This document shows, one piece after another, positions 9,146 through 57,063 of a DNA stretch of 64,000 bases. Numbering within the stretch: the stretch's first letter is position 1; each line of letters opens with the position of its first letter. The notes under the pieces were generated by a model, which saw only the letters and a program-made list of their open reading frames with translations, was not told where the DNA came from and did no database searches. Origin of the DNA: Mesoterricola silvestris (GTDB taxonomy: Bacteria; Acidobacteriota; Holophagae; Holophagales; Holophagaceae); NCBI RefSeq assembly GCF_030295405.1, contig NZ_AP027080.1:3890001-3954000 (forward strand), written 5' to 3'. A program made the position numbers and the translations under genes.

Positions 9146-9290
9146 AATCCCTCACGAATTTCTGGTTTTGCGATGGAAGTACGTCATCATGACTCTAGAG
9201 AATCCATACGTCGTGGGTAATCTACGCTGGGCCGGCCACTGTCTCGACTCGCACACAGCGCTTAAATTCGAGACAACTTCAGGATCTCCA

Positions 9291-9494
9291 ATGGCTCAAG
9301 GTACTGTTAAGTGGTTCAACGCTGAAAAGGGTTTCGGCTTCATCACCCCCGACGGCGGTGGCGCTGATCTGTTCGTCCATCACACCGCCATCCAGGGCTC
9401 GGGCTTCAAGACGCTGGACGAGAACCAGCGCGTGAGCTTCGAGAGCGGACAGGGCCAGAAGGGCCCCCAGGCGATCAACGTCACCAAGCTCTAG
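9291..9494 (+). CDS. Cold-shock domain protein (CspA family)
   Basis: A 67-residue protein with RNP1 'KGFGFI' and RNP2 'DLFVHH', the single-stranded nucleic-acid binding motifs of the OB-fold cold-shock domain. These proteins act as RNA chaperones. The ATG at 9291 is chosen because the family always starts close to 'GTVKWFN'; the frame is open further upstream but without family similarity. The 200-base AT-richer stretch before it (9,085-9,290) would give a long 5' leader, as is usual for csp genes whose leader controls stability and translation. A terminator follows directly. Confidence 0.93.
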
Positions 9495-9513
9495 TCCGGC
9501 ATAGACCGGTTCC

Positions 9514-9547
9514 GGCCCGCCCCTGAAAAGGTGGCGGGCCTGTTTTA
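9514..9547 (+). terminator. Rho-independent terminator of the cold-shock gene
   Basis: Stem GGCCCGCC (9514-9521) pairs with GGCGGGCC (9533-9540), followed by TGTTTTA. It sits 20 bp after the csp stop and just ahead of the next gene's ribosome site. Confidence 0.8.
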
Positions 9548-9560
9548 TTCAGGAGTCCCC

Positions 9561-9725
9561 ATGGCCAGAGTGAACTACCAGCGCGACAAGCGGCTCAGGG
9601 ACCTGGACCGCCAGCGCAAGCAGGAAGAAAAGCGCGCCAAGAAACTCCAGAGGGACAAGTCCCCCACCCAGGACGAAGCCCAGGTCGCCGAAGAAGGTCA
9701 GGAAATAGCCCCGGTCGAGGAATAG
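9561..9725 (+). CDS. Small highly charged protein (54 aa)
   Basis: The ATG at 9561 has AGGAG eight bases upstream. The product is almost entirely Lys/Arg/Glu/Gln/Asp in its middle ('KRLRDLDRQRKQEEKRAKK') and predicted to be one long charged helix with an acidic tail. No catalytic motif is visible. Similar short charged proteins are common beside cold-shock genes in several phyla, but their function is not established. A strong terminator separates it from the next gene. Confidence 0.65.
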   Translation: MARVNYQRDKRLRDLDRQRKQEEKRAKKLQRDKSPTQDEAQVAEEGQEIAPVEE

Positions 9726-9743
9726 CCCCGCGACCGCCGCCGA

Positions 9744-9774
9744 AAGGGCCGCCCCCCCGGGGCGGCCCTTTTCA
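9744..9774. terminator. Bidirectional terminator
   Basis: AAGGGCCGCC (9744-9753) pairs perfectly with GGCGGCCCTT (9761-9770). T-rich sequence on the plus side and A-rich on the other serve the small charged gene and the convergent HEAT-serine hydrolase gene. Confidence 0.75.
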
Positions 9775-11475
9775 CAGGTCCCCCACCCGGTTCACCAGGC
9801 GCACCCAGAGGTCGGTGCCGGAGAGGGCGTTGGTGAGGATCACCAGGCCCGTGCCCCGGGCCGGGTCGAACTGGCTGAAGCAGCGGAAGCCGGTCTGGTT
9901 GGCGCCGGAGTGGTGGTAGATGGCGCCGCCCCGGGTGGCATTCACGGACCACCCCAGGCACCAGCCCACCCCCAGGCCCCGGGCGGCGCCGGGGCGCTCC
10001 ATGGGCTCCCGGGCGTCCAGCTTCACCTGGGCGGTGAGGGCGGCCTTGAGGGTCTCCGCCTTGAGGCCCCCCACGGCGGGGTCCAGGAAGGCCAGGAGGA
10101 ACCGGGCGTAGTCCTCCCCGGTGGTGTAGAGGGTGTAGGCGGCGTTGGCGTGCAGGTACCGGGAACGGGCCTTGAAGGACCCGTCCAGGCCGTGGCCCGC
10201 CGCGAGCCCGGCCTCCACGGCGGGGGTCCACGCGAAGCTGGAGTGGCCCATGCCCAGGGGCTTGAAGACCAGCCGCTCCGCGAGCAGTTCCAGGGGCTCG
10301 TCCGCGATGCGCTCCACCACCCGCTGCAGGAGGTACATCCCCTCCCCCGAATAGAGGAACCGGGACCCCGGCTGGAACGCCACCGCCACGGGCCCCTCCC
10401 GCTCCTCGCCATCCTTGCGCCAGTTGGGCAGGCCCGAGGTGTGGGAGAGGACGTGGCGCGCGGTGATGAGCCGGAACTCCGCCTGGGGCGGGTAGCCCTC
10501 CCCCGGAAGGTAGGCGCAGAGGGGCCGGTCCAGGTCCAGCACCCCCCGGTCCGCGAGCAGGAGCGCCAGGTACGCGAACACGGGCTTGGACATGGAGCAG
10601 GCCTCGAACACCGTGTCCCGGGCCACGGGCGTGCCCGCGAGGGCGTCGGCCACCCCGAAGGTCCCGGTCCACGCGATCTTCCGGTCCCGGATCACGGCGA
10701 TGGACACCCCGGGCACCTTCAGTTCCTTCATGAGGCGCGGGGTCAGCGTCCGGATCGTGTCGAGGGTGCCCCCGGGGGCGGCCCCCATGCGGTCCAGGGC
10801 CCAGGCCGCGGCCCAGCGCACGTCCTCGTCCGGGTCCGCCAGGGCCTCCCGCAGGGCGGGGGCCCCCGCGCCGGCCGCGCCCAGGGCGAAGGCCGCCCCC
10901 TGGCGTTCGGCCCCCTCCGCCGCCCCCAGGGCCTTCACGAGGCCCGGCGCCGCGGGCGCCGCCGCGGAGCCCAGGCGCCCCAGGGCCGTGGCGGCCCCCT
11001 TGCGGGCCGCGGCCTCCTTGGCCTCCAGGGCCCGGGCCAGGACCGGCACGGCCCCGGGCCCCAGACAGCCCAGGGCCGCCGCAGCCTGGCCCTGCACGAA
11101 GACATCGGGATCCGCCAGGACCTCCGCCAGCGCCGGGGCCGCCGGCGCCGCACCGGGCCCCAGGGCCCCCAGGGCCTGGGCGGCCCGCTCCCGCACCCGG
11201 GCTTCCGGATCCTTCAGGGCCCGGACCAGGGCGGGCACCGCGGCGTCGGCCGCCGGTCCCAGCCTCCCCAGCACCCGGGCCGCGGCCTCCCGGCCCGGGG
11301 CGTCGCCGGTCTCCAGCACCCGGAGAGCCTCGGGCAGGGCCCCGGCCCCCTGGGCGGCCAGGGCCACGACGGCCTTCCACCGCGCGGCCGGATCCGGGTC
11401 CGAGAGCCCCCCGGCCTGGGCCGAAGCCGGGAGGCAAAGGAGGAGACCGGCCACGGAAAGGGGGGGAATCCGCAT
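9772..11475 (-). CDS. Exported HEAT-repeat / beta-lactamase-fold serine hydrolase fusion
   Basis: The 567-residue protein starts with a Sec signal peptide (cut near Ala21, 'ASAQAGG'). Residues about 28-235 are repeated Ala/Leu-rich HEAT units ('AAAALGCLGPGAVPVLARAL' type). The rest is a class C beta-lactamase/DD-peptidase/esterase fold: nucleophile motif SMSK (Ser294, Lys297), YSG (375-377) where the family usually has Y-x-N, and HSG near residue 515 replacing KTG. Such enzymes act on peptidoglycan peptides, D-amino peptides or small esters in the periplasm. The HEAT domain is a likely protein-binding scaffold; the pairing is unusual. It is divergent from a FadL-type porin gene. Confidence 0.85.
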   Translation of the reverse strand: MRIPPLSVAGLLLCLPASAQAGGLSDPDPAARWKAVVALAAQGAGALPEALRVLETGDAPGREAAARVLGRLGPAADAAVPALVRALKDPEARVRERAAQALGALGPGAAPAAPALAEVLADPDVFVQGQAAAALGCLGPGAVPVLARALEAKEAAARKGAATALGRLGSAAAPAAPGLVKALGAAEGAERQGAAFALGAAGAGAPALREALADPDEDVRWAAAWALDRMGAAPGGTLDTIRTLTPRLMKELKVPGVSIAVIRDRKIAWTGTFGVADALAGTPVARDTVFEACSMSKPVFAYLALLLADRGVLDLDRPLCAYLPGEGYPPQAEFRLITARHVLSHTSGLPNWRKDGEEREGPVAVAFQPGSRFLYSGEGMYLLQRVVERIADEPLELLAERLVFKPLGMGHSSFAWTPAVEAGLAAGHGLDGSFKARSRYLHANAAYTLYTTGEDYARFLLAFLDPAVGGLKAETLKAALTAQVKLDAREPMERPGAARGLGVGWCLGWSVNATRGGAIYHHSGANQTGFRCFSQFDPARGTGLVILTNALSGTDLWVRLVNRVGDL

Positions 11476-48167: not shown

Positions 48168-48767
48168 ATGGCCCTGACCTCGGGCGATCTGATCAAGCAC
48201 CTGTCCAAACTTGGCTTCAGCCCCGAATCCGGGGCAGGAAGCGAGACCGTCCTCGTCTCGAGGCCCACGCACCACTGGCTGGACGACGCGGGCCGCCACC
48301 TCATGGCGCTGGAAGTCCGGTTGGACCCGGATGGGCACTACACCCAGGTGCTGGGTCCCGCCTTCGCCTCCGGGAACCTCTTCGCGGAGCCGGACCAGGC
48401 CTTCGCGCTCACGGAGACCATGACGGCCTTCCATCTTCTCCGTTTCGTCCATGCGCCCGATGACGGAGAGATCCGCCCCAAGATCGAGCACGTGAACCTC
48501 GCGGCCGAAGCCCTGGGCGTGGAGGCGGTGCCCTCCCTCATCAGGCTGGCCATGGAGATCTTCGATCCCACTTTGACCTTCCTGGAAACCCTGGCGAGGA
48601 CCGGACGGCGGGACACGTGGCTCCTGGAAGCCGACCCTCCGGAGCTCCAGCGCCAGCAGGCCCGCCTGCGGAGCCTGCAGGAGCAGGTGGAGGCGGCCGA
48701 ACGCGAGCTCGACAAGGTCCGCCAGGCCCGGACCTTCAGCGCCCCCAAACTGCCCAAGTTCATCTAA
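48168..48767 (+). CDS. Unknown protein at head of the AAA/protease-restriction operon (199 aa)
   Basis: Not recognised. The protein is soluble with a central 'ALTETMTAFHLLRFVHAP' helix and a C-terminal coiled coil ('LQRQQARLRSLQEQVEAAERELDKV', abbreviated to 'LQEQVEAAERELDKV'). Its stop lies 11 bp before the start of the Clp-FtsH fusion gene, so the two are almost certainly co-translated partners; it could be an adaptor or substrate receptor for that protease. GAGGAG precedes the ATG. Confidence 0.75.
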   Translation: MALTSGDLIKHLSKLGFSPESGAGSETVLVSRPTHHWLDDAGRHLMALEVRLDPDGHYTQVLGPAFASGNLFAEPDQAFALTETMTAFHLLRFVHAPDDGEIRPKIEHVNLAAEALGVEAVPSLIRLAMEIFDPTLTFLETLARTGRRDTWLLEADPPELQRQQARLRSLQEQVEAAERELDKVRQARTFSAPKLPKFI

Positions 48768-48778
48768 GGAGAAACCAG

Positions 48779-51700
48779 ATGCCCCTTCAGAATGCGACCT
48801 CGCTGCAGAAGGACCTCTTCGCCGGGGCCCGGCGCTGCGCGCTGGCCCATGGCCGGAAGGCCGTCGGCATCGAGGACGTCCTCGCGTCCTTCGCCGGCCT
48901 TGCCAGGGACCCCCGCCTCGCTCCCGTGACCCGCGAGGGCCTGGGCCTCCCCCCGGAGGCGGTGGTCTGGCCGGAGGACCTGGTCCGGCGCTGGCGCACC
49001 GCCGTGGACCGGGTCCGCTCCGCCGAAGCCCCCATGCCCTACGAACCCGCCCTGCAGCCTCCCCTGGACCACGCCCTCCGGGCCCGCGGTTTTGATCTCG
49101 GGGCCCTGCTCGCCGGGATCGCGAAGCTGGACGCCCCCTCCGCCCGCGAACTGCGGCGCCTGAATCCGCGGCAGGAAGGGGACGGCACGCCGGAAACCCT
49201 GGCCCGGCGCCTGCGCCGGGCGGGTGAAGCCGGCGAGGACCTCCGGACCTACCTCGAGGCCCGGCTGTTCGGGCAGGACCACGCCATCGAGACCCTGGTG
49301 AAGGCCTACGTCAGTTCCCAGATCAGGCCCCAGAGCGCGGGCCCGCGCGCCATCTTCACGCTCATGGGCCCCCAGGGCACCGGGAAGACCCTGGCCGCCA
49401 GGTGCCTCGCGGAGCACCTGGGCCAGACGGGAGACCGCTGTGGCGAACCCCTGATCCTGGACATGGCCACGCACACCGGCCACCAGGCCCAGGAAAAGCT
49501 CTGGGGCTTCAGCAAGTCCTACACCGATGCCCGTCCGGGCATCCTCACCGGTTTCGTGAAGGCCAACCCCGAGGGCGTCGTCGTCTTCGACGAGATCGAA
49601 AAGGCCTCCTCCGCGACCCTCCAGGCCCTCCTGGGCGTCCTGGACCGCGGCAAGGGCCGGGACGACTACGACGAGGAGGAGGTGGACTTCTCCCGTGCCA
49701 TCCTCTTCTTCACCACGAACCTTGGCCGGACGCGCCTGGCTTCCGCCCGCGGGGCCCTGGACCGGGAAACCCTTCTGGACATCCTGGGGTCAGAAGTCGG
49801 GCTTCCCCCGGGACAGTCCGGCGCCCCCGTCCCGCTCCTCTCCCCCGAGCTGGTGTCCCGGCTCGCCAAGGGCGCGGTCCTGGCCATGGAACCCCTGACC
49901 CAGGACGGCTTCCTGGCGGTGTTCCGCAAGGCCTTCAGCCAGTCCCTGGAGGCCGCGAAGCTCCCCATCCCCCACCTGCCCGGGGACGCCGCCCTGCTCT
50001 TCCTGCTGCGGCACGCCCAGGGCCTGGACGGCCGCAAGGCGCAGGCTGTCGGCGTGGACCTGGCCGACCGCGTCATCCAGGACCTCGTGCGGGCCACGGA
50101 AGAACGCCCCGGGACGGAGCTCGCGGACATCCGGTTCCAGGTCTCCCCCGAAGCGGCCCACTGGCTCCGGCGCAAGGCGGACGCGGTCGCCGTGAACCTC
50201 CTGGTCGTCGGCGAGGACCTTGACGCCAAGCGCTTACTTGGCGGGCCCGGGATCACCTGGCGGTCCGTGGCGTCCCTCGCCGAGGCCGCGACCGCCCTGG
50301 AAACCCTGCGGCCGGATGGAGTGGCCTTCCTGGGGACGGCGCAGGATGGGCAGGATCTCCCCTTCAAGGGGCCCCGGATCGCCCTGGCGGAGGCGGTCCC
50401 CGGCCGGGACCCGCGCGCCGAGGCGGCGTCCTTCCTGAACCAGGTGCGCCGCGGACGGCTCGTGAAGGAGCAGGTCCGCTCCCATCAGTCGCTCTCCTTC
50501 GTCCTGGAGTCGAAGGTCCTGAGGACGGAAGGCCTGCCGCACACCCTGGAACTGCGGCTGTCGAGCCCGAAGGAGACCCGCTTCCTCCGCCACGGGGTCG
50601 CGGACAGCCCCATCCGCATGATGGAACGCCCTGAACAGGGCTTCGAAGCCATCATCGGGCACGGCCAAGCCAAGGCCCGGTTGTCGAAGCTCGCGGAGCG
50701 CCTGGGCGCCGCGGGGTTCCAGCCGATGCCGGCCAAGGGCTACCTCCTCGCGGGCCCTCCCGGCACCGGCAAGACCAGCCTCGCCCGTGCCTTCGCTGCG
50801 AAGGCCGGCGTGCCCTTCTTCGCCCTGGGCCCCGCCGACCTCGCGAGCCCCATGAAGGACGAAGGCGCCCGCCGGATCCGCGAGGTCTTCGCACTGGCGG
50901 CGGAGTACGCGCCTTCCGTGGTCTTCATCGACGAGCTGGACGGCATCGCGCCGAACCGGAGCCAGGCCGGCCATTCCATGGAAGGGCGGCAGATCCTGAC
51001 GACCCTCCTCACCTGCATGGATGGGATCCGCCCCAACGAAAGGCCCGTGTTCGTCCTGGGCGCGACCAACAGGCCGGATCTCCTGGACGAAGCCCTCCTC
51101 CGGCCGGGGCGCCTGGATGCGGTCCTGGCCCTGGACCTGCCCGGCGCCGCCGATCGGGAAGCCCTCCTCCGGGCCCGCCTCCAGCGGATTCCGGACCAGG
51201 TGCCGCTGGACCTTGAAGCCCTGGCGAAGCGGAGTCTCGGACTCAGCCAGGCCGCCCTGGACGGCCTGGTCCGGGAAGCGCTCCAGGCCGCCGCCTGGGA
51301 GGGCCGCTCCACCCTCACCCTGCGGGACCTCCAGCGGGCCCTGGAGACGGCACGCCTGGGCGACCGGTCCGAAAGCGCCCCGCACACCGAAGCCGTGAAG
51401 CGCCTGGTCGCCGCCCACGAGGCCGGCCACGCCATCGTCAGGGCGGCCCTCCTACCTGATTCCCCCGTGACCCGCATCGATATCGTCCCCCGCGTGAGCG
51501 GAGCCGGCGGAGTTACCGAAAGCCTGCCGCAGGAAGGTTCCTGCGCCCTTCGAAGCCGCTCGAGGCTGCGTGCCGAACTGGCCGCCCTCATGGGCGGACG
51601 AGCTGGCGAGCTGATGCTGGTGGAGAGCGAGGACCTGGTGACGGATGGCTGCCAAGGTGACTTGGCCCAGGCCACTCGGATGACCCGCCGGGCAGTCCTC

Positions 51701-51958
51701 GAAGGGGGAATGGATCCCGAAGTGGGATTGGTGAACGTGACGCTGGCCGCGCGGGAAGGGTGGGACGACAGGATCACCGCTCGTGTGGCCGCCTGGATTG
51801 AGGAAGGTCATAGCCGCGCGTTGGAGGTGCTGAGCGCGAACCGGAAGGCCTGGGAGGGCTTGGTGGAACTGCTTCTGGACAAGGAGTCCCTCGAGGGCGA
51901 GGACCTGGGGACGCTCCTGAAGGATGTGGGACCTTGCCGGTGCGTATCGACGAAGTAG
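48779..51958 (+). CDS. Clp-type AAA+ module fused to FtsH-type AAA+ and M41 metalloprotease (soluble)
   Basis: The 1,059-residue protein starts at the ATG at 48779 with AAGGAG upstream. Residues 1-150 resemble a Clp N-domain ('ALAHGRKAVGIEDVLASF'). A ClpA/ClpB D2-like AAA+ follows: Walker A GPQGTGKT (197-204), Walker B 'VVFDEIEKA' (Asp271-Glu272). A second, FtsH-like AAA+ has GPPGTGKT (659-666), 'VFIDELDGIAPNRS' and 'GATNRPDLLDEALLRPGRLD'. The C-terminus is an M41 zinc protease: HEAGH (880-884) and third ligand Asp961 in 'TDGCQGDLAQAT'. No TM helices are present, unlike FtsH. It is probably an ATP-driven protease with two motors, in an operon with restriction-like genes. Confidence 0.9.
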   Translation: MPLQNATSLQKDLFAGARRCALAHGRKAVGIEDVLASFAGLARDPRLAPVTREGLGLPPEAVVWPEDLVRRWRTAVDRVRSAEAPMPYEPALQPPLDHALRARGFDLGALLAGIAKLDAPSARELRRLNPRQEGDGTPETLARRLRRAGEAGEDLRTYLEARLFGQDHAIETLVKAYVSSQIRPQSAGPRAIFTLMGPQGTGKTLAARCLAEHLGQTGDRCGEPLILDMATHTGHQAQEKLWGFSKSYTDARPGILTGFVKANPEGVVVFDEIEKASSATLQALLGVLDRGKGRDDYDEEEVDFSRAILFFTTNLGRTRLASARGALDRETLLDILGSEVGLPPGQSGAPVPLLSPELVSRLAKGAVLAMEPLTQDGFLAVFRKAFSQSLEAAKLPIPHLPGDAALLFLLRHAQGLDGRKAQAVGVDLADRVIQDLVRATEERPGTELADIRFQVSPEAAHWLRRKADAVAVNLLVVGEDLDAKRLLGGPGITWRSVASLAEAATALETLRPDGVAFLGTAQDGQDLPFKGPRIALAEAVPGRDPRAEAASFLNQVRRGRLVKEQVRSHQSLSFVLESKVLRTEGLPHTLELRLSSPKETRFLRHGVADSPIRMMERPEQGFEAIIGHGQAKARLSKLAERLGAAGFQPMPAKGYLLAGPPGTGKTSLARAFAAKAGVPFFALGPADLASPMKDEGARRIREVFALAAEYAPSVVFIDELDGIAPNRSQAGHSMEGRQILTTLLTCMDGIRPNERPVFVLGATNRPDLLDEALLRPGRLDAVLALDLPGAADREALLRARLQRIPDQVPLDLEALAKRSLGLSQAALDGLVREALQAAAWEGRSTLTLRDLQRALETARLGDRSESAPHTEAVKRLVAAHEAGHAIVRAALLPDSPVTRIDIVPRVSGAGGVTESLPQEGSCALRSRSRLRAELAALMGGRAGELMLVESEDLVTDGCQGDLAQATRMTRRAVLEGGMDPEVGLVNVTLAAREGWDDRITARVAAWIEEGHSRALEVLSANRKAWEGLVELLLDKESLEGEDLGTLLKDVGPCRCVSTK

Positions 51959-52044
51959 CGGACCGGCAGGTCCGAAGCCCATGCTACGATTCACCACCCG
52001 TTGAAAACTGTTTGGTTGCTTTGCTTTACATACCGAGGCAGTAC

Positions 52045-53442
52045 ATGGCGTTTCGATTGGCGTTGCCGCAGATCCAGCTTGTGGATTTCGACCCCGAGGG
52101 CGTACTGCTCATCCGTGGCCAGGCGGGAAGCGGGAAGACCACGGTCCTGCTGGAACGGGCCCAGGCGCTGCTGAGGACCTACCCGAGGGCCACCGTGCTG
52201 GTGCTTGCCTTCAACGAAGCGCTCTCGTCGCGGGCCAGGCGTACCCTTGGCGCGGCCGTCGCGGAGGGGCGACTGGAAGTCCGGACGCTCCACGACTGGG
52301 CGAAAACCTTGGCACGCCATGAAGGCGTTCAGTTCCCACCGGGCTTCTGGGCGGATTCCACGACCCGCGAACGCTTCCTGGGCAACATCCTTAAGCGCCC
52401 ATCCATGAACATCCAAGGAACACGGCTGGAGGCCTGGACGGTTTCCCAATGGAGTGATGAGGTGGAGTGGCTGATCGGCCAGGATATCCAGTCTCTTGAG
52501 GACTATCTGGATACGCCTCGCCGAGGGCGTGGCCGATCGGGGGGCCCAGGGCGGGAGGACCGGGCCAAGGTCTGGGCCGTTTTCGAGCAGTACCGGAAAG
52601 AACTTTCGGCCAAAGGCAAGCACGACCTCCACGACATTCTTGGCCTGATCCGCAAGGCCAGTGAACAAAGCCAGAAGCCTCAACCGCAGAAGGCTTCCTT
52701 CGATTTCGTGCTTGTGGACGAGGTCCAGGACCTCGACCTGGCGTGGCTGAAGGCCGTGGCCTCCATCGCAAGGGTCGGCACGACCTTCTCGGGCGATTTC
52801 GCCCAACGCATCTATCGCCGCCATTTCACCTGGAAGGCCGCGGGAATCGAGCTCCCCCCGGCGCGCTCCCGATTCCTGGCGGGCACCCATCGCAACCCCA
52901 GGGCCATTGTGGCGCTCGCGCAAAAGGTTCTCGGCGAAGCGGATCCCTCCGCGGATACGGGGTTCGAGTCCCCAAGCCCCGACGCCATGCTGGACGACGG
53001 GCAGGATCACGTTTATTTCATCCAGCATCCCCAGGTGCGGGAGGCGCGCAAACGAGCCCTTCTGCACGCAGTCGATTGCTGGAAGGGGGGAAGGGACGTG
53101 GTCATCGCCGTCCCCTTCAGGCGGATCGCCGATGAATCCATCAAGGTTCTCGGGGAGCTCGGCACAAAAGCCGGATTCCTCCAACGAAGGGACCTGGCTG
53201 ATCGGGATGGTGCGGTTCTGCCGCTCACCACCTTCCACCAGATGAAGGGCCTGGAATGCGAGGACCTCGTGCTCCTGGGCATGGAGGACGACTTGTTCCC
53301 AGGGTGGTTCCTCTCTGACCTGCAAGGTGCCGAACTCGAGGACAAACAGGCAGAACTCCGGAACCTGCTCTACATGATCGTGACCCGGCCACGCCGTTCC
53401 CTGACGCTTTCCATGGGCGGGAAGGTGTGCCGGTTCCTGTAA
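52045..53442 (+). CDS. Short UvrD/Rep-like superfamily I helicase
   Basis: The 465-residue protein has Walker A 'GQAGSGKTTVL', Walker B 'LVDEVQDLDLAWL', motif III-like 'SGDFAQRIYRRH', motif V 'TFHQMKGLECEDLVLLGM' and motif VI 'LLYMIVTRPRRSLTL'. It has the 1A and 2A cores but little of the 1B/2B subdomains of full-length UvrD, a shape seen in defence-associated helicases. It probably translocates on single-stranded DNA. I use the ATG at 52045 (GAGG at 6 bp). It lies 86 bp after the protease gene and 38 bp before the McrB-type gene. Confidence 0.88.
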   Translation: MAFRLALPQIQLVDFDPEGVLLIRGQAGSGKTTVLLERAQALLRTYPRATVLVLAFNEALSSRARRTLGAAVAEGRLEVRTLHDWAKTLARHEGVQFPPGFWADSTTRERFLGNILKRPSMNIQGTRLEAWTVSQWSDEVEWLIGQDIQSLEDYLDTPRRGRGRSGGPGREDRAKVWAVFEQYRKELSAKGKHDLHDILGLIRKASEQSQKPQPQKASFDFVLVDEVQDLDLAWLKAVASIARVGTTFSGDFAQRIYRRHFTWKAAGIELPPARSRFLAGTHRNPRAIVALAQKVLGEADPSADTGFESPSPDAMLDDGQDHVYFIQHPQVREARKRALLHAVDCWKGGRDVVIAVPFRRIADESIKVLGELGTKAGFLQRRDLADRDGAVLPLTTFHQMKGLECEDLVLLGMEDDLFPGWFLSDLQGAELEDKQAELRNLLYMIVTRPRRSLTLSMGGKVCRFL

Positions 53443-53480
53443 GTGCGTTCAAGTATTCGACAAGCCCCCAAGGAGTCCGC

Positions 53481-55403
53481 GTGGAAGTACTCAACCTGCA
53501 GCCTTACAGCGTAGTGACGGAAAAGCCGGGCGGACATGGCCTGACGTTTCGTGACCATGGCGACCTGCAATTCAACTTGAACAGGGCCTTCCGCGAGATT
53601 CGCGCAAATCAAGAATATCTGGCGATCGATGGAAGCCATCTCTGGCAGATCAGCTTCATCCAGACTCCATGCAATGGGACCAAACAATATCTTCACTTCA
53701 AAGAAGAGGAGGCACAGGAACTGGCGGAGGTAGGCCTCCAGTGGCTCAACCCCGTCGAGGACCAGGCACAGGTTCCCAAAATGGGAAAGGAGCACATCCT
53801 TGAGCTGCTCGGGAGCCTCCGGGATGCCGGGAAGGAAAGCTTCTGGAACTGGGCCATCGAATCCCATCGTGAGCAGGAAAACCATTTCGCGAGTCTGTTG
53901 AGCACCAACGGAATCGACCCCATCGGCTGCTTCAAGGTCCTCCTGGAAGCGGACCGGAGCGGGCCTTTCTGGCGATGGGCCGTTCAGATCGACAAGGAAG
54001 GTCGAAACAACCTTGCCCGCCTTTTCGACCTGAACGCCCTGCGGCCGTTTCTGGAGGAATGGAGGGCCCAGTTCTGGGAAGAGGCGGGGCGGCGCGGGGA
54101 TGTCCTCGGATGGTTCGGCCTCGTGGATGAGTGGATGGACTTCGCTGCCCGGGGTTCCAGGTTGTCGTCCCAGCCCTCCGTTCAAAAGGCTTCGCCCCTG
54201 CCCTTGGCCGCGGAGCCAATGCCTGCGCAGACCATCTATTTCGGCCCCCCCGGAACGGGCAAGTCCTGGACCATCGCCGCCCGGATCGCCTCGGACAAAC
54301 CCTCCTCCTTCCCCATCCAGTTTCATCCGGAATATACCTACGGTGACTTCTTCGGCAAACTGGTGCCCCTCACCGTCAATGACCCTTCAAAACCCGATGA
54401 GCACCGGATCGACTACCGTGTCCACTTGGGCCCTTTCCTGAAGGCCCTCTCGAAGGCGTATACATGGATGGCTTCTGGCCAATCCAATGCCTCGAATGGA
54501 TCGGGTGAAGTTTGTCTTGTCATCGATGAGATCAATCGAGGGAACTGCGCTGCCATTTTCGGGGAAACCTTCCAGCTCCTGGATCGCGAGATCGGCGATC
54601 GCCACATTCCTCATGAACTTCGCGAAGAGGGACCTGTCGTTTCCAGGGCGGGGTGGTCGTCCTATCACATCGAACTCCCGCCTGTTCTCAGGAAGGCGTT
54701 CTTCGAATACTTCCTCGAGGCATTGCTGGAGGGCACGTCCGAGGAAGGCCTCGAATTCCCAAAGGAGCCCTGGAAGGATGCCGCGAAAGTCCTGAACCGG
54801 CTTCACGAAGGTGGGGAACCCAAGGTCACGCCGGAAGACTTCCCGGCCAGTCCCATTGCCGTGCGGAGGAAGGAAGATTTTGCTCTCCTGCGTCAATTGG
54901 CCCACGACGGGTTGATCGCGTTACCGCCGAACCTGCACATCCTGGCATCCATGAACACCTCCGATGAATCCGTCTTCTTCATGGATTCGGCCTTCAAGCG
55001 ACGGTGGGACTGGGAGCATGTGGGGATTGGTGAAGTTGCTCCCACCCGGCTTTCGGGAATCAGGGTTGAAGGCAAGGAGTACACGTGGTGCGAGCTGGTC
55101 GGCAAGGTCAACGCGTTCCTCAAGGCCAATGCGGATCGCATTCGCGGGATCGATGACAAGCAGATCGGCTACTGGTTCATCAAGCCGGAACCCAGCTCCC
55201 AGCCAGGAAACGCCTTCGAGGTCTCCCTCAAGTCCTTGAAGGGAAAGCTGCTCCATTACCTCTGGGACAGCGTCTTCAGCCGCGACCGGAGGCCTTTGAA
55301 GGATCTTTTGCCGGATGAGGCCCGGGCCCGGACCGTCACGTTCGGGGACTTCGTGGGAGGCAACAACCTCGAGTTGATCCTAGATAGACTCATGACCATG
55401 TGA
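53481..55403 (+). CDS. mcrB: McrB-type AAA+ NTPase (restriction motor subunit)
   Basis: The 640-residue protein starts at a GTG at 53481 with AAGGAG at 5 bp. An N-terminal region (1-240) of no clear family would be the specificity domain. The AAA+ core has Walker A GPPGTGKS (255-262), Walker B 'VIDEINRGN' (Asp349-Glu350) and the McrB signature 'MNTSDES...FKRRWDW' (from Met491). McrB proteins hydrolyse GTP, assemble as hexamers and drive an McrC-type nuclease on modified DNA. The nuclease gene begins 10 bp after its stop. The N-domain does not look like the DUF3578 or EVE readers I know, so the recognised DNA mark is open. Confidence 0.9.
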   Translation: MEVLNLQPYSVVTEKPGGHGLTFRDHGDLQFNLNRAFREIRANQEYLAIDGSHLWQISFIQTPCNGTKQYLHFKEEEAQELAEVGLQWLNPVEDQAQVPKMGKEHILELLGSLRDAGKESFWNWAIESHREQENHFASLLSTNGIDPIGCFKVLLEADRSGPFWRWAVQIDKEGRNNLARLFDLNALRPFLEEWRAQFWEEAGRRGDVLGWFGLVDEWMDFAARGSRLSSQPSVQKASPLPLAAEPMPAQTIYFGPPGTGKSWTIAARIASDKPSSFPIQFHPEYTYGDFFGKLVPLTVNDPSKPDEHRIDYRVHLGPFLKALSKAYTWMASGQSNASNGSGEVCLVIDEINRGNCAAIFGETFQLLDREIGDRHIPHELREEGPVVSRAGWSSYHIELPPVLRKAFFEYFLEALLEGTSEEGLEFPKEPWKDAAKVLNRLHEGGEPKVTPEDFPASPIAVRRKEDFALLRQLAHDGLIALPPNLHILASMNTSDESVFFMDSAFKRRWDWEHVGIGEVAPTRLSGIRVEGKEYTWCELVGKVNAFLKANADRIRGIDDKQIGYWFIKPEPSSQPGNAFEVSLKSLKGKLLHYLWDSVFSRDRRPLKDLLPDEARARTVTFGDFVGGNNLELILDRLMTM

Positions 55404-55413
55404 GGGGTATCGG

Positions 55414-57063
55414 ATGCCGGCTCCGGAGCAAAATCCGCATCCCTGGAAAATCGTAGGCCCCAGGCCCGGCATGGGCTGGGGCAGAGTCGGCTGGAAGGGG
55501 AATGAACTCGTCTTCCCGGAAGGCCTTTCCACGGAAGCTGAAGGCTGCGCCCATCGCCAGATCAAGCTCGCCATGGTCCTTCAGCTTATGACCCCAGGGT
55601 CCAACAACCAGAAGATCGCGGTCAGCGAATCACCTGGATCAGAAGGGACGGGGGCCGTCCATACCGTCGACGGTGAAGCTCCTCCCCGCCGGGAACAAAC
55701 CATGGACGGGGGTTTGGCCAAGCTCCTGGCCTTGGCGGATGATCCGGAACTGCCATGCCTGGTGCAGCGCAGGGGAATCGTAAGGGATCCGGACTGGGAC
55801 CAGTTCGAGCGCCACCTGGCCCACGCCATCTATGAGCCCAATAACGCAATCTACCTGCCCGAGGGCATCGGACCACGCAGGATCAAGACTCACGGCATCA
55901 CGGACATCGCATGCCTGTATGCCTTCATCGTCGAGGAGCTCCTGAGAGCGGGCCACCAGGATCTTGCCCAGGGGATGCCGCTTTTCCTGAGGAGCCTCGC
56001 GGAGGAATTCCGGGAGCGCTGGCCGGATTTCGCCGTCCCCTTTCTTGACGATGCCCAGGGGTTCAACAGGTTGCGGCATCTTCTCGACCAGATCCACCGG
56101 ACGACGCCCCTCCGGGATGACCGGTATTTCGATTTCTTTGAAGCCATCGAAAGCTACCTCTACGAGGGCGACGCCTGGACCGATTCACCCACCTGGGGTA
56201 CGGACTCCTTCGCCCATGTGTGGGAGGCGCTCTGCATGAACCACGTGGAGATGCACCCGGAAACCTACGGCAGCCTCCTGGCCATGGATAGACGGGAATG
56301 CGACTGGCCGGCCCCGGCCCACATGGACCGCTGGAACGGGTCCGGGCGGTCCGAGGAGAGCTTCTGGATCCACAAGGGATTCCGGAGCAAACTTGCCTCC
56401 GCCCTGAAATGGGTCAATCCGGGCAACGAGGAGGTGGAATCCGGCCATCGCGAGGATTGCCCGGCCAGGGGCACAAAAAGAAAAGTCACCGGCCGTGGGG
56501 ACTGCCCGGATTGCCGTGAGCTCCGAGCCAGGAAGCCCCTGGAACCGGACGCGGTTCTGGTATCGGAACGGGTTCTGCCCGGCAACGGTCTAGGGAAAAA
56601 GAAGCGCCTCCTGCGCCGCTGCGCCTCAGAAGGACCCAAGAAGCTGATCCCGAAACCAAGCCGCCGCTCCGCGTTCCGCGTCCGCAGCAAGGTTGTCGTT
56701 GTGGATGCCAAGTACAAGCACGTCTATTGCAAACTTGTCACCCGGCAGGACCCTGACCTCCCTGATCGCGAAATCTCCATCCTCCTGAACCAGGATTTCG
56801 AGAAGCAGCTTCGCTACGAGGTTGCCCTGCGCCGCGCCATCCCGTGCGAAAGGGTCACGCACGAGTTCTGGGTTCCTGCCTCCGCCGGCGGAACACGAAG
56901 GATCGTCATCCCCAGCTGCCCGTGGGTTGCCCTGCGCCCCATGCCCATCGAACGGCTCCTGGATGAATACCTTCAACGCCACGGTTGGAAGCTTCTGGGC
57001 TCAAGACTTGCCCCACCAGGGCTTGCATCAAATCCGCCAAGGCCAGTCACTCAACCCGGGTGA
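55414..57063 (+). CDS. PD-(D/E)XK nuclease, McrC/LlaJI-like partner of McrB
   Basis: The 549-residue protein has a C-terminal nuclease core: Asp379 in 'EPDAVLV', then 'VVVDAKYKHV' with Asp431 and Lys433, the D...D-x-K arrangement of PD-(D/E)XK enzymes and the 'DAKYK' form seen in McrC/LlaJI nucleases. Residues about 345-372 contain a His/Cys cluster ('HREDC', 'DCPDC') that may bind zinc. The N-terminal 300 residues are unfamiliar. Position directly after mcrB supports a two-subunit motor-nuclease complex. The start has GAGGGG upstream. Confidence 0.82.
   Translation: MPAPEQNPHPWKIVGPRPGMGWGRVGWKGNELVFPEGLSTEAEGCAHRQIKLAMVLQLMTPGSNNQKIAVSESPGSEGTGAVHTVDGEAPPRREQTMDGGLAKLLALADDPELPCLVQRRGIVRDPDWDQFERHLAHAIYEPNNAIYLPEGIGPRRIKTHGITDIACLYAFIVEELLRAGHQDLAQGMPLFLRSLAEEFRERWPDFAVPFLDDAQGFNRLRHLLDQIHRTTPLRDDRYFDFFEAIESYLYEGDAWTDSPTWGTDSFAHVWEALCMNHVEMHPETYGSLLAMDRRECDWPAPAHMDRWNGSGRSEESFWIHKGFRSKLASALKWVNPGNEEVESGHREDCPARGTKRKVTGRGDCPDCRELRARKPLEPDAVLVSERVLPGNGLGKKKRLLRRCASEGPKKLIPKPSRRSAFRVRSKVVVVDAKYKHVYCKLVTRQDPDLPDREISILLNQDFEKQLRYEVALRRAIPCERVTHEFWVPASAGGTRRIVIPSCPWVALRPMPIERLLDEYLQRHGWKLLGSRLAPPGLASNPPRPVTQPG

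Follow-up and report, generated by a model that had tools for sequence, protein, structure and literature searches.

We analyzed a window of 64,000 nucleotides from the chromosome of Mesoterricola silvestris (Acidobacteriota; contig NZ_AP027080.1, positions 3,890,001 to 3,954,000), and focused on a gene that encodes a protein of 1,059 amino acids. As judged from its sequence, this protein is soluble and combines an AAA+ motor of Clp type and another of FtsH type with an M41 zinc protease in a single chain. A small gene, which we refer to as the partner gene, lies directly upstream. The features of the two genes, in coordinates of the window, are:

48168–48767, + strand: partner gene, 199 amino acids, C-terminus LPKFI (P-x-x-I-COOH), weakly YbjN-like; found with a hidden Markov model (HMM) of other partners at E 1.3e-6
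48779–51958, + strand: fused gene, 1,059 amino acids, order Clp_N, Clp AAA+, degenerate receiver (REC)-like, FtsH AAA+, M41 protease
48779–49162, + strand: Clp-type N-domain, residues 1–128, seven predicted helices (family profile, AlphaFold2)
49235–50113, + strand: first AAA+ motor, Clp D2 type, residues ~153–445 (Pfam, alignment, model scores)
50186–50443, + strand: REC-like domain, shortened, phospho-acceptor Asp absent in the window copy (family profile)
50615–51382, + strand: second AAA+ motor, FtsH type, residues ~613–868, Walker A/B and arginine fingers intact, pore loop eroded (SPMKDEG)
51389–51910, + strand: Peptidase M41, HEAGH at residues 880–884, zinc ligand Asp 961

Domain organization of the fused protein

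The frame is open throughout its 1,059 codons and starts 11 bases past the stop of the partner frame, preceded by GGAG (AAGGAGAAACCAG-ATG). The GC content at the three codon positions, computed from the longest possible start, is 0.76/0.51/0.86. The source genome is one contig of 4.99 Mb, a single closed chromosome. Three Pfam domains scored above their curated cut-offs: AAA_2 at residues 191–324 (E 3.5e-22), AAA at residues 656–785 (E 2e-44) and Peptidase_M41 at residues 871–1044 (E 3e-32). The first motor has Walker A at residues 197–204 (GPQGTGKT), a pore tyrosine in FSKSYTD, Walker B at residues 267–275 (VVVFDEIEK), an arginine finger in SPELVSRLAKG and a lid with the sensor-2 motif LDGRK. 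The second Walker A is at residues 659–666, and the third zinc ligand of the protease, Asp 961, lies within GCQGD. The protein has no membrane helix; over 19 residues its hydropathy peaks at 1.13, compared with 2.49 for the housekeeping FtsH that this genome encodes.

An initial annotation of this DNA, made from the letters alone, had proposed a Clp-type motor followed by an FtsH-type motor and an M41 protease, with both membrane helices absent. These claims held, and the residue positions that it gave for the Walker A/B pair, the second Walker A, HEAGH and the zinc Asp were exact. It did not mention an N-domain, a receiver-like domain between the motors, the partner gene or the two-gene forms, all of which are described below.

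Recurrence and split forms

The same chromosome contains a second fused gene (P0002, 1,065 amino acids; 45% identity in the FtsH half and 37% in the Clp half), a two-gene version made of a 407-amino-acid Clp part and a 699-amino-acid FtsH part, and one ordinary FtsH. Of 396 Acidobacteriota genomes searched with profiles, four had fused genes. The remaining fused loci came from a pattern scan of GTDB contigs and from a 377-genome sample of the phylum of a metagenome-assembled genome labelled Myxococcota, so that about 770 genomes from two phyla were sampled in total. Altogether there are 13 fused loci (window, P0002, G328, G185, L087, G069, L088, L089, G433, G462, G731, G532 and G633), in one of which (L088) the gene is interrupted by the contig end and the remaining half is on a second contig. 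Two-gene versions were seen in G000, G014, G031 and G409. The family is rare and patchy in its distribution. Scans of viral contigs gave no relative, and tblastn of phage and plasmid collections gave no record covering 80% of the window protein. A 602-amino-acid 'AAA family ATPase' from a Brevibacillus plasmid, which matched from residue 516, was rejected since it falls among ordinary FtsH proteins and not within the family.

The initial annotation had named such recurrence as support for its reading, and an error joining two genes as what would undo it. Two-gene versions do occur in this genome and in relatives, but we give a sequencing or assembly error that joined two adjacent genes next to no weight. 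It is refuted by the recurrence of the fused form at 13 loci in many genomes, among them the paralogue in this chromosome and loci from several genomes that were assembled separately, and the window gene itself is an uninterrupted frame with consistent codon-position GC in a closed chromosome.

The split point is identical in all four two-gene versions and divides the small lid of the Clp motor. The first helix of the lid is the last element of the Clp chain, and the strand and helix bearing the sensor-2 arginine stand at the start of the FtsH chain. If the chains fold as aligned, a complete Clp-type module needs both of them, and the two genes should therefore encode one machine. Programmed frameshifting was considered for these pairs and is disfavored because each downstream gene has a start codon of its own that is out of frame with the first gene. 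In one pair a clear ribosome site, AAGGAGG, precedes the ATG, and two pairs have TGATG overlaps. An arrangement of two genes is preferred. No partner gene of the kind found with fused genes was seen beside the split forms.

The two motors belong to different classes and have diverged together

The best models for the first motor were those of the second (D2) motor of ClpA and ClpB, with ClpA scoring 80.8 bits in the window protein and 107.7 bits in L089. No FtsH model reached E 1e-10 on this motor, which argues against its being a degenerate copy of the FtsH domain, the other outcome that the initial annotation had said would count against it. For the second motor the best model was FtsH (FtsH_fam) in all four members tested, at 123–292 bits, far below the 543 bits of a true FtsH. 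Foldseek and VIA-align searches with an AlphaFold2 model of the whole window protein gave lists full of FtsH, PAN and p97 chains, mostly over residues 572–956, in which the missing Clp and receiver rows are uninformative. When placed in a tree with D2 domains from housekeeping Clp proteins in related genomes, the family's first motors formed one clade (support 1.0). In a tree with ordinary FtsH, the second motors and one divergent FtsH (L047) stood apart from the rest (support 0.98). The expectation that the motors would fall in their respective clades was thus borne out. Across 16 members the pairwise distances of the two motors are correlated (r 0.895; Mantel p 2e-4), as they are among fused members (r 0.83), which shows that the two motors have traveled together.

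The catalytic residues are well conserved. Each of the 16 tabulated members has HExxH (as HEAGH or HESGH), the zinc Asp, the first-motor Walker A and the Walker A, Walker B and sensor 1 of the second motor. In the first motor Walker A, Walker B, sensor 1, the arginine finger and sensor 2 are intact in the window protein and in most fused members.

The pore loops differ between lineages. The first-motor pore tyrosine is retained in 11 of 12 fused members, the loop being deleted in G532, and the four split pairs have likewise lost this loop. Most members carry K-[WY]-[VI]-G-E-S-E (typically KWVGESE) as the pore loop of the second motor, which is Cdc48/PAN-like rather than F-V-G. In the window protein and its paralogue this second-motor loop is eroded (SPMKDEG and SRYRDTA, respectively). 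This exchange of pore loops is read directly from the alignment. If it reflects function, grip on the substrate would be expected in the Clp ring in the window lineage and in the FtsH ring in the split lineage.

An N-domain and a receiver-like domain accompany the motors

A profile of the N-domain built from 11 members was compared with PDB sequences, and the N-domains of ClpC2, ClpA, ClpC and ClpB ranked at the top (best E 1e-6). The N-domains of single members matched nothing relevant in Pfam. AlphaFold2 modeled this part of the window protein as seven helices, with a predicted local distance difference test score (pLDDT) of mostly 80–93. Although the similarity is weak, these data identify the first ~130 residues as a Clp-type N-domain.

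For the region between the motors, a profile of nine members matched response-regulator receiver domains (best E 5.6e-7), which made up approximately the whole of the matches displayed. Pfam Response_reg scored below its cut-off in L089, G532 and G328. At the level of the family these data support a relationship to the receiver fold. The phospho-acceptor Asp is present in 10 tabulated fused members and absent from the window protein and its paralogue, the acidic pair occurs in about half of the fused members, and the conserved Lys occurs only in G069. From this pattern the domain is mostly a pseudo-receiver, and the window copy a shortened remnant. This copy reads VVGED and AFLGT where most relatives have VVDED and LLDL, has neither the phospho-acceptor Asp nor the conserved Lys that, with an acidic pocket, mark response-regulator receivers, and was modeled by AlphaFold2 as alternating beta and alpha elements with low pLDDT.

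The partner gene and its C-terminal tail

The small partner gene adjoins 11 of the 13 fused genes. It is upstream in Holophagae and in most of the second phylum, and downstream in Thermoanaerobaculia, G069 and G422. An HMM built from seven other partners, with the window partner and that of the paralogue excluded, found the window partner (E 1.3e-6) as its sole new match in 3,545 open reading frames (ORFs). Strong partner matches occurred in 8 of 359 genomes, a sample that overlaps with the one used for the fused gene and is not identical to it. Five of these eight genomes are among the seven that have the fused gene, and the two genes co-occur in the sampled phylum (Fisher p ~2e-8).

All 11 partners terminate in P-x-x-[L/I/F]-COOH (LPKFI, LPNFI, three times PPDAL, GPSTL, APTEF, PPSVL, APREL, SPREL and GPATL), and this tail is preceded by a Gly-rich or charged linker that is probably flexible. 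Three partner-like proteins from genomes without the fused gene are shorter, have neither linker nor tail, and end in REPITY, REPITY and AASYQRR. The absence of the tail where the fused gene is absent indicates that the tail goes with the protease. These tail-less proteins of ~150–160 amino acids (L130, L131 and L132) adjoin a TatD-like hydrolase gene, as seen by eye, and may represent a housekeeping relative of the partner. Compared with YbjN and type III secretion chaperone-like proteins, the partners have weak profile similarity and, in a low-confidence model, a similar order of strands and helices. They differ in scoring below the Pfam cut-off and in their distinct C-terminal tail, and this similarity is a lead only. 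We also considered whether the partner domain is fused to the protease in G532, and rejected this; the likeness was by eye only and the partner HMM misses that N-terminus at E 10.

Neighboring genes

Downstream of the fused gene, the window contains at 51934–57063 (+ strand) a UvrD-like helicase, a McrB-like AAA+ protein and a third ORF with the motif VVDAKYK and no Pfam hit; together the three may be a separately acquired restriction block. Less than 2 kb from the fused gene of G069 are about 20 copies of a 36-nt repeat of the type found in clustered regularly interspaced short palindromic repeats (CRISPR), GTCTTCATGCCGCCTTGGGGCATTCCTCTCCGGGAC (L084:8000–9588), and at the same locus an NYN-domain gene follows the partner gene. 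A second small family, of ~138 amino acids and with a conserved terminal phenylalanine, lies beside the fused genes of Thermoanaerobaculia and of G633 (L085:5594–6010, L087:756–1184, L109:11336–11929), and its G633 member has a zinc ribbon. The G633 gene is also flanked by Ser/Thr kinase-TPR and FHA-kinase genes (L109:463–3408 and 9196–10590), and these could provide input to the receiver-like domain or to the protease. A Tubulin-like (Tubulin_2) gene and a weakly matching vWA-like gene adjoin the G532 fused gene (L108:5665–10939).

Comparison with known systems

In the fused protein, as in FtsH and its M41 relatives (i-AAA and m-AAA), an M41 domain with HExxH and a distant Asp comes after an AAA motor, and identity to them is ~35% over the second motor and protease. 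It differs from FtsH in having no membrane helices and in having an extra Clp motor, an N-domain and a receiver-like domain in front, and it does not carry the F-V-G pore loop of FtsH. With the NCBI FtsH equivalog model the window protein scored 302.7 bits, compared with the 600 bits required. With ClpA and ClpC it shares a Clp-type N-domain, a D2-type Clp motor and what would be two rings feeding a protease chamber. Unlike these proteins it has a single Clp-type motor and a second motor of FtsH type, its protease is a zinc enzyme within the same chain, and by eye the family motor has no ClpP-docking loop (IGF/L-type). The two Clp modules that define ClpA, ClpC and ClpB were not found, since one motor is AAA_2 and the other a classical AAA, and the window protein scored 95 bits with the NCBI ClpA equivalog model, for which 993 are required.

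Plasmid clusters of ClpK and FtsH also encode a Clp motor and FtsH side by side. There they are separate full-length proteins, which covered no more than 58% of the query at ~35% identity. Cdc48/p97 and the proteasomal ATPases resemble the family in being double- or single-ring classical AAA proteins with a similar pore loop, but both rings of p97 are classical AAA and it has no built-in peptidase. The FtsH ternary conflict systems (Kaur et al., 2020; PMC7159879) include a chain with two AAA+ domains, both of FtsH type and the first inactive, which is encoded alongside MoxR and vWA genes. The likeness to our family lies in the two AAA+ domains in one chain, the second an active FtsH type, and in conflict-system neighborhoods. 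In the family described here, however, the first motor is of Clp type and usually intact, as it is in the window protein, and an M41 domain is present. No MoxR or vWA genes were found in the window operon, and one relative, G532, has a weak vWA neighbor.

The fused protein thus fails at least one defining feature of FtsH, of ClpA/ClpC, of the clpK-ftsH clusters and of the ternary conflict systems, and on this basis would be an AAA+ protease of undescribed architecture. The initial annotation knew of no characterized protein with this order of domains, and full-text searches of the open-licence literature found no published description of it, which is weak evidence given that most subscription journals are outside this scope.

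Proposed mechanism and alternatives

We propose that the protein is probably a soluble, ATP-driven zinc protease in which two non-identical AAA+ motors of one chain are stacked. The sequences themselves show the domain order, the catalytic residues, the recurrence, the co-divergence of the motors and the linkage to a tailed partner, on which this model builds. Six copies would form a hexamer, and the N-domain, the small partner or both would capture the substrate. The Clp ring would then grip and pull it by the conserved pore tyrosine and pass it through the FtsH ring into the M41 chamber to be cut, the M41 ring taking the position that ClpP has under ClpA. We infer the hexameric rings, threading by pore loops and proteolysis in an M41 chamber because these are known of FtsH, ClpA and Cdc48. 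The receiver-like domain between the motors may gate the transfer, mostly without classical phosphorylation, and the partner may dock by its P-x-x-[L/I/F] tail as an adaptor that brings substrates or is itself consumed. A broader reading, to which we give slightly less than an even chance, is that the family is an undescribed class of soluble AAA+ protease with motors of two clades stacked over a built-in zinc protease, a receiver-like gate, a tail-docking adaptor, motors that trade grip between lineages and, in the split forms, one AAA+ module made from two chains.

Several observations weigh against this proposal. The AlphaFold2 model of the single chain had a predicted template modeling score of 0.34 and was poor at residues 385–617, and no hexamer could be predicted. 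The first motor of G069 has lost its Walker B acids and arginine finger (VLVKGIERA, ALISGLSQG); together with the loss of the pore loop in the split pairs, this suggests that active pulling by the first motor is not universal. As for the partner, G633 and G532 have no recognizable partner gene, YbjN (PF10722) reached at best E 0.043 on the partners (14.5 bits, with a cut-off of 22), and the structure model of the partner (pLDDT 42) was too poor for use.

Hydrophobic C-terminal tails are common degrons of AAA+ proteases. The partner could therefore be a substrate with its tail as the degron, forming a self-limiting module; the placement of the tail after a probably flexible linker and its lack in the partner-like proteins of the three protease-less genomes would fit this. 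A strictly conserved proline at position -4 is unusual in a plain degron, though, and conservation of a folded domain hints at a role beyond that of a substrate. We regard this explanation as rather improbable, and consider an adaptor role for the partner the more likely of the two.

Two biological roles appear about equally probable. A stress or quality-control protease and disaggregase, comparable to the plasmid-borne clpK plus ftsH clusters, would fit the Clp N-domain and D2-type motor, which suit the unfolding of aggregates, and plasmids that carry separate adjacent clpK and ftsH genes indicate that the two activities are co-selected elsewhere. The single Clp motor of the family, compared with two in ClpK and ClpB, its rarity, which is unlike that of housekeeping proteases, and a dedicated partner with a fixed tail, which suggests a narrow set of substrates, make this role somewhat unlikely. 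The other is that of an anti-phage or counter-element defence effector, with the partner or the receiver-like domain as the sensor of infection and a phage or host target for the protease to degrade. The rare and patchy distribution fits such a role, and all three copies in this chromosome adjoin defence-type genes: the window copy the UvrD-like and McrB-like pair with, by eye only, a possible McrC-like nuclease (VVDAKYK), the fused paralogue an AIPR/MzaE gene with a tyrosine integrase nearby, and the split pair a DrmD/DEAD-type helicase and a tyrosine integrase (L010:1464–6346). The G069 gene has its CRISPR-type repeats nearby, and L088 has a weakly Avs2-like neighbor. G433, G462, G731 and G328, however, have no obvious defence gene in the stretches examined. 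The window pair has a third-position GC content of 0.86–0.88, which is core-like, compared with 0.73–0.76 in the downstream UvrD/McrB block, so the neighbors may be a separate insertion, and the PADLOC matches of the window protein are generic AAA+. A defence role is only suggested by the neighbors, and we judge it unlikely.

Implications

Known double-ring AAA+ unfoldases pair two motors of one broad type and bind a protease that is a separate protein, and FtsH is a membrane-bound enzyme with a single motor. One natural chain that combines a Clp-class motor, an FtsH-class motor and a covalently attached protease would allow the direct question of how unlike motors coordinate on one substrate. 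The lineages that have lost one or the other pore loop would serve as ready-made mutants for this question, and the dedicated partner with its invariant short tail would provide an immediate handle for work on adaptors.

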